From positions 1-36,939 of the forward strand of contig SCSN01000004.1 of the NCBI GenBank assembly GCA_004322205.1: a DNA stretch of 36,939 nt, written 5' to 3'. A program made the translations under genes and the position numbers. The notes beneath the pieces were generated by a model that saw nothing but the letters and a program-made list of their open reading frames with translations, searched no databases and was not told where the DNA came from. The stretch is from Patescibacteria group bacterium. Lineage in GTDB: Bacteria > Patescibacteriota > Minisyncoccia > Phycocordibacterales > Zambryskibacteraceae. Positions 18,803 to 35,447 of the stretch are shown one piece after another. How positions within the stretch are numbered: position 1 is the stretch's first letter; every line of letters starts with the position of its first letter.

Positions 18803-19053
18803 TTCCTCCTGAACAAAATCCGAACTTTTTACCAAACGAATCCTGACTAAGGAAGCCAGCCCGCCGCCGCTCGCTACCACTCGCCACCCAGCAAAAAAGT
18901 TTTCTCTGCATTTCTGATTTTGCGCGCGCCGGATTTCTTCTTCCCCGCCTGCGCCGAGGCTTCAGCGGGCAGGTAAAAGGAAAAGAAAACTTTTTTGCTG
19001 GGTTCTGCTCTCTCCGGCGAAGCCGCGAGGCAACCTTTCAATCTTATCCTTGT

Positions 19054-32652: not shown

Positions 32653-33540
32653 ATGTTTCGTGGTATTATTATAATAATGACAAATCTGAAGCAAAAAACA
32701 CGGAAGATCAGGGTCAAAGGGAGATGGGTTACCATAGTCGCAATGCTCTCTCTCCTTCCCCTCTCTTTCGCGCTGGCAGAGCTTCCCAGCAATGAAACCC
32801 CATACCCGGAAAAACTCTACGCCCAATGTTTTGACAGCAAAGACAATGACGGCGACGGAAAAATCGACCTCAAGGACGTTGACTGTCCTAAATGCGCTGA
32901 CGGTATTGATAACGACGGCGACGGCTTTATAGATCAAGCTGATTCTGATTGCCCGAAGAAAATCGGGTTCTGGAGGCAAGCGGCGGCGGCAGTTCTTGGC
33001 GTTGATACGACAGACGAAGGCACAGCTGGTGCGGGATTTCCTTCAGGCGGCACTGTTGCCGCCGGAGGCACGATTGCGGCAGGGGGTGCACCTTGCAGCG
33101 GACGTGTTGTTGTTTTCCAACGGAGAGTGAGGACTGCGACGAGCTTTTATCTTCAGCCGGTTTATACTACCTGCATTAATCAAGTTGACGCCGGAGGAGA
33201 AATTGGAACAATAGACGACCCTCGCGACGTACCTGTGGGGGGCGAAATTTCTGCAGGCGGCAGGACCGCGAGCAGTGAACGTATCCAAGCTGGCGGAACA
33301 GTCCCCGCTGGTGGAACAATTAGTAGCGGCGGAACAATTACTACGGGTGGTACTCTTCCTGGAGGTGGCACCGTCACTTCAGGGGGCAAGATTATCGCTG
33401 GAGGTGCGGTGGAAGTTAGTAGCTCGATTAATGTTGGCGGCAAGATTCAGGGTGGCGGAATAGTTGACGCCGCTAGCTCCGTCATTTCCGGAGGAAGAGT
33501 CTCTGCAGGCGGTTCTATCCCTGCAGGCGGAACTATATAA
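32653..33540 (+). CDS. Secreted protein with DNDGDG (MopE/EF-hand-like) segment and C-terminal hexapeptide GG-repeat
   Basis: N-terminal hydrophobic signal, CFDSKDNDGDGKIDLKDVDCPKCADGIDNDGDGFIDQADSDC, then GGTVPA GGTISS GGTITT GGTLPG.. repeats. Confidence 0.8.
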   Translation: MFRGIIIIMTNLKQKTRKIRVKGRWVTIVAMLSLLPLSFALAELPSNETPYPEKLYAQCFDSKDNDGDGKIDLKDVDCPKCADGIDNDGDGFIDQADSDCPKKIGFWRQAAAAVLGVDTTDEGTAGAGFPSGGTVAAGGTIAAGGAPCSGRVVVFQRRVRTATSFYLQPVYTTCINQVDAGGEIGTIDDPRDVPVGGEISAGGRTASSERIQAGGTVPAGGTISSGGTITTGGTLPGGGTVTSGGKIIAGGAVEVSSSINVGGKIQGGGIVDAASSVISGGRVSAGGSIPAGGTI

Positions 33541-33547
33541 TTGGGGA

Positions 33548-34465
33548 ATGAAAAAGAGACTCCTTGTTGTCATCGGGCCGACGACATCGGGCAAGAGCGC
33601 TTTAGCGGTGGCGCTTGCCAAAAAATTTTCCGGCGAAGTTGTATCTGCCGATTCACGCCAAGTCTACAAGGATCTTGATATCGGCACGGGAAAAATCACG
33701 AGAAAAGAAAAGGCAGGGATTCCTCATCACTGCCTCGACATTGCTAGTTCCAAGCGCCAGATTACCGTCGAAGAATACCGCAAGCATGCCGAAAAAGCGC
33801 TCGAAGAAATCTGGGCGCGCGGAAAACTCCCCATCATAATCGGCGGAACCGGATTTTACATCCAGGCTCTGGTTGATAAAGTAGTTTTTCCTCATGTCCC
33901 GCCGAATAAGATACTGCGCAAGAGATTAGAGAAGAAATCTGCGCAGGAACTTTTTTTAATACTCAAAAAACTGGATCCTGCCCGCGCCCGAACAATTGAA
34001 CCAAAGAATCCGCGCAGACTTATCCGCGCCATAGAAATCGCCAAGACATTAGGCAAAGTGCCGCAGTTAAAAAGACGAAAGAAAGAACTTGATGCACTTT
34101 TCATGGGTATAAAAATTTCCCCGCAGATTCTCAAGAAAAATATTGAAAGACGGGCAATAGAAAGACTGCGCCAAGGAATGATTGCCGAAGCACAAAGACT
34201 CCGAGCGAGAGGGCTTTCACTCAAGCGAATGCGCGAACTCGGTTTGGAATACCGATATTTGGCTGACTTCCTGCAGGACAAAATTTCAAAAAAAGAGCTC
34301 CGCCAGAAAATTATCAGCGGCAATTGGCAATATGCCAAACGCCAATTGCGCTGGTTCAACCGCGATAAAAGAATTAAATGGTTTGATATCTCCAAAAAAC
34401 AAGAAAGGAAGAAACTCGAGAGGTCGGTGAGAAAGTTTCTTGATATTGACACAATTCAGAAATAG
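33548..34465 (+). CDS. miaA: tRNA dimethylallyltransferase
   Basis: LLVVIGPTTSGKSALAVALAKKFSGEVVSADSRQVYKDLDIGTGKI; IIGGTGFYIQALVD; NPRRLIRAIEI; AKRQLRWFNRD. Confidence 0.96.
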   Translation: MKKRLLVVIGPTTSGKSALAVALAKKFSGEVVSADSRQVYKDLDIGTGKITRKEKAGIPHHCLDIASSKRQITVEEYRKHAEKALEEIWARGKLPIIIGGTGFYIQALVDKVVFPHVPPNKILRKRLEKKSAQELFLILKKLDPARARTIEPKNPRRLIRAIEIAKTLGKVPQLKRRKKELDALFMGIKISPQILKKNIERRAIERLRQGMIAEAQRLRARGLSLKRMRELGLEYRYLADFLQDKISKKELRQKIISGNWQYAKRQLRWFNRDKRIKWFDISKKQERKKLERSVRKFLDIDTIQK

Positions 34466-34898: not shown

Positions 34899-34942
34899 CC
34901 GCCCCGTGAGATAGCGCGCACGCGCGCCAACTCACGGGGCGG
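34899..34942 (+). terminator. Terminator hairpin CCGCCCCGTGAG...CTCACGGGGCGG + TTTTT
   Basis: Long GC stem followed by ttttt. Confidence 0.85.
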
Positions 34943-35046
34943 TTTTTCTTTGAGAAAAAATTTGATACGATTGTGTGCAAATATAAAGGTGGTTGGTTGA
35001 GTGGCATAACTTCGGCCTCCAACCCAGCACATTATTAGAGGTCAAT

Positions 35047-35219
35047 GGGAGCTTAGTTAAGTGGTATAACTGCTGTCTCTCCGCCTGCGTATGGGTCTAT
35101 AGTTCAACGGTAGAACGATGGTCTCCAAAACCATTAATCCAGGTTCAAGTCCTGGTGGACCCGCAAATTTCGGCGGGCAGGCAAAACAGCGGTCGGAGGT
35201 TCGATTCCTCCAGCTCCCG
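35047..35219 (+). other. Split tRNA-like gene, anticodon loop interrupted by a segment containing tRNA-Trp
   Basis: 5' half GGGAGCT TA GTTAAGTGGTATAAC T GCTGT CT..; 3' half ..AA ACAGC GGTC GGAGG TTCGATT CCTCC AGCTCCC G. Acceptor, anticodon and T stems all pair perfectly. Confidence 0.6.
35093..35163 (+). tRNA. tRNA-Trp (anticodon CCA)
   Basis: GGGTCTA TA GTTCAACGGTAGAAC G ATGGT CTCCAAA ACCAT TAAT CCAGG TTCAAGT CCTGG TGGACCC G. Confidence 0.93.
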
Positions 35220-35288
35220 CTAGAATGTGCTGGGCGAGTCCTGGTGGGCCCGCAAATATTAAACCCCGCCGTATGGCTGGGTTCAATG

Positions 35289-35447
35289 TTATTTCTTTGC
35301 CTCCTTGTGAAGAGTGCGCTTTCTGCAAAATCTGCAGTACTTCTTGAGCTCGATTTTTCGCTCGACTTTCTTCTTATTTTTGCTTGTCCAATAGTTAATC
35401 CGCTTACAGTTCGAGCATACAAGTTTTATAAGATTTTCTTGAGACAT
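35289..35447 (-). CDS. rpmG: 50S ribosomal protein L33
   Basis: Minus-strand translation MSQENLIKLVCSNCKRINYWTSKNKKKVERKIELKKYCRFCRKRTLHKEAKK*, with two CxxC motifs; absent from the ORF track because it is short. Confidence 0.92.
   Translation of the reverse strand: MSQENLIKLVCSNCKRINYWTSKNKKKVERKIELKKYCRFCRKRTLHKEAKK

Follow-up and report, generated by a model that had tools for sequence, protein, structure and literature searches.

Can a bacterial tRNA gene hold a second, complete tRNA gene within its anticodon loop, and if so, is the outer gene spliced around its insert or broken by it? The question is raised by a locus 1.7 kb from a contig end in the DNA analyzed here (the window, one complete contig of 36.9 kb). 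The genome to which the window belongs (G000) measures 667 kb in 18 contigs and is rated 100% complete. Its size, gene content, and relatives suggest that it is a Patescibacteria/CPR genome.

Anatomy of the nested tRNA-Trp locus

The complete tRNA-Trp(CCA) that the initial annotation placed at the center of the locus was called by both ARAGORN and Rfam (35093-35163/4). It had been asked whether another intact copy exists; in the genome-wide tRNA list the inner gene is the sole intact Trp tRNA of G000, and no other Trp copy is complete. Every isoacceptor has an uninterrupted copy in G000. Pro(TGG), the sole isoacceptor absent from the list, is merely cut by a contig end (C5:101390-101446), and we rejected the idea that this gap marks a hidden interrupted essential tRNA that could serve as proof of splicing.

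Flanking the inner gene are two halves of a second tRNA, the stems of which pair throughout, as had been described: acceptor GGGAGCT/AGCTCCC (7/7), D arm GTTA/TAAC (4/4), anticodon GCTGT/ACAGC (5/5), and T arm GGAGG/CCTCC (5/5). The junction was fixed by searching relatives with the whole locus and with the intact tRNA-Trp of one relative. The outer halves join exactly at query positions 33|34 of a relative's intact tRNA-Trp, with nothing missing or duplicated. The break thus falls after tRNA position 34 (34/35), the insert is exactly 102 nt long (35080-35181), and the joined anticodon loop reads CTC|CAAA, with the anticodon CCA. Three joins had been offered for this loop, of which CTC+CAAA (CCA, Trp) stands; the Cys(GCA) and Glu(CTC) readings are ruled out by the gapless homology join to intact Trp relatives. 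ARAGORN, proposed as a check and run with introns and overlay allowed, did call the outer tRNA but picked the wrong junction and labelled it Cys. Standard tRNA finders miss such outer genes.

Compared with its relatives, the outer anticodon stem of the window carries a compensatory change, from G29-C41 to T29-A41. When the whole transcript was folded, one tRNA-like structure formed inside another, at -66.9 kcal/mol. Between the upstream open reading frame (ORF) and the tRNA locus, at 34899-34944, a strong hairpin (CCGCCCCGTGAG...CTCACGGGGCGG) is followed by a T-run and is likely a terminator.

The wider span initially assigned to the locus (34989-35252) proved justified, as there is a third, partial tRNA-Trp layer outside the outer tRNA. 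Its 3' piece is a near-direct repeat of the 3' end of the inner tRNA-Trp. Because the two pieces are of unlike tRNA-Trp types and show no pairing between their acceptor strands, we regard this outermost layer as an apparent relic rather than a demonstrated third tRNA.

Table 1. Features of the window locus and nested tRNA genes found elsewhere
Feature	Location	Strand	Basis or remark
miaA (presumed), upstream neighbor, orthologous-locus marker	33464..34465	+	ORF list, synteny
Third tRNA-Trp relic, 5' half (GGTGGTT...CTCCAA)	34988..35022	+	31/35 identical to G005 tRNA-Trp; match in search of relatives
Inverted repeat left arm, CCCAGCACATT	35023..35033	+	Perfect 11 bp, bounds outer tRNA
Outer tRNA-Trp 5' half, ending in GCTGTCTC	35047..35079	+	Query 1-33 of relatives' intact tRNA-Trp, 94%
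Insert left arm, TCCGCCTGCGTAT, with palindrome end CCGCCTGC at 35081-35088	35080..35092	+	Five foreign nests, dispersed palindromes
Inner tRNA-Trp(CCA), complete	35093..35163	+	ARAGORN, Rfam RF00005 (70.7 bits), genome-wide tRNA list
Insert right arm, CAAATTTCGGCGGGCAGG, with palindrome end GCGGGCAGG at 35173-35181	35164..35181	+	Five foreign nests, dispersed palindromes
Outer tRNA-Trp 3' half, starting with CAAAACAGC	35182..35220	+	Query 34-72, 87%; stems pair
Joined outer tRNA-Trp across the junction, GCTGTCTCCAAAACAGC			
Inverted repeat right arm, AATGTGCTGGG	35224..35234	+	Perfect 11 bp, bounds outer tRNA
tRNA-Trp 3'-end fragment, inner type, CGAGTCCTGGTGGGCCCG	35235..35252	+	18/18 to G090
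rpmG (presumed; ribosomal protein L33), downstream neighbor, orthologous-locus marker	35289..35447	-	Synteny
Ordinary palindrome copy without tRNA, CCGCCTGCGCCGAGGCTTCAGCGGGCAGG	18945..18973	+	Dispersed-repeat search
Ile(TAT) within Ile(TAT)	L119		
Arg(TCG) within Arg	L142		
Gly(TCC) within Gly	L132		
Leu(TAG) within D arm of Leu(TAG)	L190		
Val(CAC) within Val	L183		
Phe within Phe	L127		
Thr(TGT) within Thr	L135		
Ala(CGC) within Ala	L143		
Pro(CGG) within D loop of Pro(CGG), identical sequence	L163		
Three-layer Pro-in-Pro-in-Pro nest	L147, G416:C5:1-351		Two outer layers fully paired

A palindromic insert at an ancestral locus

The GCCTGC/GCAGGC helix was found where the initial annotation had it (35083-35088/35177-35182). 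The insert has the ends of a dispersed palindrome, CCGCCTGC...GCGGGCAGG, with a tRNA in place of the apical loop. Members of this palindrome family occur in G000 and in 8 of the 11 other genomes searched, and the reversed-pattern control gave 0. There are 3 ordinary copies in G000 and up to 13 in other genomes (G414, G416, G534, G580, and others), where many of them hold structured loops. The insert repeat therefore resembles REP elements in that the same palindrome is dispersed in the genome. No terminal GTAG or CGTC tag was noticed in the palindrome copies as listed. A second candidate family, CCCCGTTAGAAAT...TTTCTAACGGGG, was set aside after giving zero short-loop copies in 12 genomes.

A search of G000 for Y1_Tnp (PF01797) gave no match; of the eight genomes searched for Y1 transposases, G000 is the one without them. 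Several of the Y1 transposase genes have flanking palindromes of their own that differ from the nest palindromes. Mobilization by a RAYT would imply a cognate Y1 transposase with matching repeats, and we found no such enzyme in G000 and differing RAYT palindromes in the other genomes.

The tRNA locus is followed by a gene that we take, from its sequence, to be rpmG, and is preceded by an ORF presumed, from a sequence motif, to be miaA. Since the tRNA-Trp of several relatives also lies between or near miaA and rpmG, the outer gene occupies the ancestral tRNA-Trp locus. At this locus there is a working outer-type tRNA-Trp in G005 and an inner-type one in G006. The inner and outer tRNA-Trp of the window are 69% identical, and the inner one is 85% identical to that of G006 and 92% identical to that of G090, its nearest match among the searched genomes. 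By these comparisons, three states, A (G005), A(B)A (the window), and B (G006), coexist in one bacterial family. Within the order to which the window belongs, the exact nest pattern is present in the window alone, and a second pattern for interrupted tRNA-Trp genes matched only the window and G041.

Relatives carry other elements associated with tRNA-Trp. Just 5' of its working outer-type gene, G005 retains what is left of the 5' half of an inner-type tRNA-Trp, the anticodon loop of which contains a palindrome, CCTGCCTGTCCTGCCTACCGGCAGGCAGG (L075 1425-1500). In G027 (L063, C3:839-1598, minus strand), a 28-nt hairpin is inserted at CTC|CAAA of a tRNA-Trp 5' half, which is followed by a small GIY-YIG-like nuclease ORF and then by a complete tRNA-Trp that shares the first 35 nt; by bringing a 5' half along, this element seems to make the tRNA whole again. 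An element of about 125 nt lies 3' of tRNA-Trp in many relatives (L040 1575-1720, L088 1228-1375, L089, L090, L052, and L037). It includes an inverted piece of the tRNA 3' end, has the conserved sequence ...GGAATCGAAAGCCGGA...GAGGCGGGGTCG...GTGACCGATTCC..., repeats the last ~19 nt of the tRNA at its end, and has no Rfam match; it resembles an insertion into the T loop by which the 3' end is restored. Similar elements stand in tandem at L024 (1573-1831) and L046 (1600-1800), where parts of the tRNA-Trp 3' end occur in both inverted and direct orientation. At L028/L070 (G054:C12), two tandem units follow tRNA-Trp. A tRNA-Trp 3' half forms the end of each unit, with ~23 nt at CTC|CAAA and a hairpin, TTTTGGAGACCAGTGGTCTCC, that is an inverted anticodon arm.

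Nested tRNA genes in other bacteria

We scanned the genomes of 85,462 species with the pattern GTCTCNCCGCCTGC-N86..116-GCAGGCAAAA and obtained eight matches, of which five are the same Trp nest: a Bacteroidetes metagenome-assembled genome (MAG), a Berkelbacteria genome, two Gottesmanbacteria genomes, and one contig of G024. All five have the break CTC|CAAA and a complete tRNA-Trp within it, and their outer halves vary by host. The other three matches (two in Amycolatopsis and one in Bartonella) contain no tRNA and were taken as chance. A search of viral contigs for a nest with the same ends found none. All named examples of nests are from MAGs. The G024 contig (L112, G024/G418) is 2,114 bp long and has a Gottesmanbacteria-like inner tRNA-Trp; because the same MAG also holds an ordinary tRNA-Trp, it is probably a contaminating Gottesmanbacteria contig. 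In the Bacteroidetes MAG (L106 3314-3560), the outer shell bears two further palindromes, in the variable region and the T loop.

A covariance model of the nest scored at least 114 bits on nests, whereas the remaining tRNAs of the same genomes reached about 71 bits at most. At a strict cutoff it matched 6 of 337 genomes of the Gottesmanbacteria class; among these matches, L132 is a Gly nest and L131 keeps just the 5' half outside. The nest is rare but recurrent.

Weaker matches to the model, together with a search of the sequences flanking tRNAs in G416, G417, and related loci, revealed nests for nine further amino acids (Ile, Arg, Gly, Leu, Val, Pro, Phe, Thr, and Ala), all isotype matched (Table 1). 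At L163 the inner Pro gene equals the interrupted outer gene in sequence, as if it had recently been copied locally. In nest-rich genomes, the flanks of tRNAs showed no clear excess of exact inverted repeats over swapped flanks, and we therefore judged nests by the outer tRNA and not by repeats alone. In the set examined, scores of at least 21 were reached by 4.2% of cases versus 0.04% with flanks swapped between tRNAs. Because this swapped-flank rate is far lower and the outer halves are homologous to intact tRNA-Trp with an exact junction, the nested arrangement is real and not a product of chance.

Isotype matching was assessed with the anticodon loop masked, so that a circular choice of junction was avoided, and each outer tRNA was compared with 254 intact tRNAs of these genomes; outers with extra palindromes were trimmed by eye beforehand. 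The amino acid of the inner tRNA scored best for 15 of the 17 outers and second for the other two, in a library that over-represents Trp and in which non-Trp cases act alike. We infer that the match is due to selection for survival, which requires no target recognition by the cargo, because nonmatching insertions would not survive.

The outer shells differ in condition. All stems are paired in the window, L115, L132, L183, L127, L135, L163, and two layers of L147, and in L127, L183, L135, and L147 this is so despite extra loop palindromes, which number two or three in some shells; the nest finder favors paired outers. L129 is heavily decayed, pairs are mismatched or broken in L130, L119, and L107, and the 3' half of the outer is missing or truncated in L131, G041, and G027. 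Given the decay in L129 and the mismatches in L130, L119, and L107, the outer copies appear to be dispensable.

Proposed gene replacement, its alternatives, and known systems

We consider it likely that the locus is an insertion scar turned working gene, in which a palindrome-borne tRNA-Trp replaced the resident gene. A REP-like palindrome with a complete tRNA-Trp of another lineage as its apical loop would have entered the anticodon loop of the resident tRNA-Trp, destroying that gene yet supplying a working gene of the same isotype, so that the cell survived. The inner tRNA would be freed by ordinary end processing (RNase P and 3' trimming) and take over, leaving the outer halves as a redundant shell free to decay. 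The same events may have been repeated across many isotypes in other bacteria, sometimes recursively, if loop insertions in a single-copy essential tRNA survive solely when a functional tRNA of matching isotype comes with them.

The initial annotation had weighed a tRNA gene broken by insertion against a tRNA within a functional intron. We favor the former over the latter because all isoacceptors have uninterrupted copies, the inner Trp gene alone is complete, and outers elsewhere are often decayed. Fully paired shells are unexpected for pseudogenes, yet the finder favors them and the insertions may be recent.

The inserted tRNA could be supplied in two ways. One would be a mobile palindrome-tRNA-palindrome cassette, in line with the different lineages inside and outside and the same ends across phyla. 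Such a cassette presumably moves or forms through palindrome and Y1-transposase (RAYT-like) chemistry or through palindrome breakage. An agent of the RAYT kind is plausible, and we offer it as conjecture because G000 has no Y1 transposase and the palindromes do not match. The other route would be local capture, as L163 suggests.

That local capture accounts for nests in general, with no ready-made cassette, is a possibility to which we give a minority share of our confidence. A copy of the same tRNA would be caught at a break in the center of a palindrome already present in a tRNA loop, which makes this a variant of our preferred explanation that works by local duplication or repair. The identical inner and outer Pro(CGG) genes of L163 fit it, as do the loop palindromes or other short inserts without tRNA cargo in G027, G041, and G005; in most nests, however, the inner and outer tRNAs are of different lineages, as the identity within the window illustrates, and the same end sequences recur across phyla.

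It is unlikely that the outer tRNA is also functional, with the palindrome-bounded insert excised and the halves joined, which would make the insert a new kind of short, tRNA-carrying bacterial intron. The perfect stems of many shells, some with several loop inserts, the placement of inserts mostly within loops, and the compensatory difference at 29-41 all speak for function. Against this, splicing is unneeded when each isoacceptor of G000 has an uninterrupted copy, the outers of L129 and L130 are decayed, those of L131, G041, and G027 have lost part or all of the 3' half, and we found neither an Rfam intron match nor a bulge-helix-bulge in the consensus fold. We hold it improbable that bacteria of several phyla possess an unknown splicing system that cuts palindrome-bounded introns, some with a second tRNA in them, out of tRNA loops and ligates the halves, for a gain of two tRNAs of the same isotype per locus.

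A regulatory or processing role for the tRNA-shaped shell, for example in stabilizing the inner tRNA or timing its release, seems very improbable: the whole transcript folds as nested tRNA-like structures and, judged by eye, several nests have linkers next to the inner tRNA that are able to pair, but shells vary freely and in some genomes are decayed or half missing. An assembly artifact fusing two tRNA-Trp loci, conceivable in a draft assembly with a contig end so close, is highly improbable, as the same structure, break, and ends recur in independently assembled genomes, the outer gene is at the orthologous locus, and the palindrome ends are regular family members.

Insertion with replacement remains our preferred reading, and the recurrent nests point to an undescribed route of essential tRNA gene replacement. 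By passing through the states A, A(B)A, and B, a foreign or duplicated tRNA gene could take the place of an essential single-copy one at the same locus. Cargo borne by palindromic elements could allow the cell to survive their insertion into essential RNA genes, a natural form of break-and-replace logic. The nests also raise the experimental question of whether bacteria are able to splice tRNAs when no group I intron is involved.

Group I introns have a conserved ribozyme core and are usually 200 nt or more in length; the Rfam matches in the window were to tRNA only, and 71 nt of the 102-nt insert are tRNA. A bulge-helix-bulge consists of two 3-nt bulges around a 4-bp helix at the junctions; the consensus fold of six nests has a 6 x 3 internal loop and the 6-bp GCCTGC/GCAGGC helix. 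Rfam and the consensus fold thus agree with the earlier judgment that the insert is too short for a group I intron and lacks a bulge-helix-bulge. An archaeal tRNA-Trp intron, at about 100 nt, carries a functional RNA (a guide RNA). The nests resemble group I and archaeal tRNA introns in interrupting the anticodon loop and differ from them in that what they carry is a whole tRNA of matching isotype.

The palindromic elements (RPEs) of Rickettsia conorii have been compared with REPs (PMC3733652). Nests are like RPEs in that palindromes are tolerated within genes. To our knowledge, RPEs occur in protein genes and bring no rescue gene with them.

Integrative elements at tRNA att sites leave tRNA fragments at their far end (PMC9897764). 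As in the nests, a tRNA gene is interrupted and a restoring part is brought along; there, one end of the tRNA is restored by a copied fragment and a direct repeat is left. The window, unlike these elements, has a whole divergent tRNA inside, in ~100 nt, and lacks both an integrase and a target duplication. Its insert ends form an inverted repeat, the halves abut exactly, and 102 nt leaves no room for an integrase.

The REP/REPIN-RAYT system comprises short GC-rich palindromes dispersed in the genome (PMC3733652). The nests share with it the dispersed palindromes and, in most of the nest-bearing genomes examined, Y1 transposases flanked by inverted repeats; unlike it, G000 has no RAYT match. 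We know of no REP described with an apical loop that holds a complete tRNA gene, nor of one that inserts in isotype-matched tRNA genes. The open-licence papers searched in full text gave no account of nested tRNA genes, tRNA interruptions in CPR bacteria, or palindromes in tRNA genes like these, and the nearest systems in them are the REP/RAYT palindromes (PMC3733652) and the tRNA fragments of integrative elements (PMC9897764).
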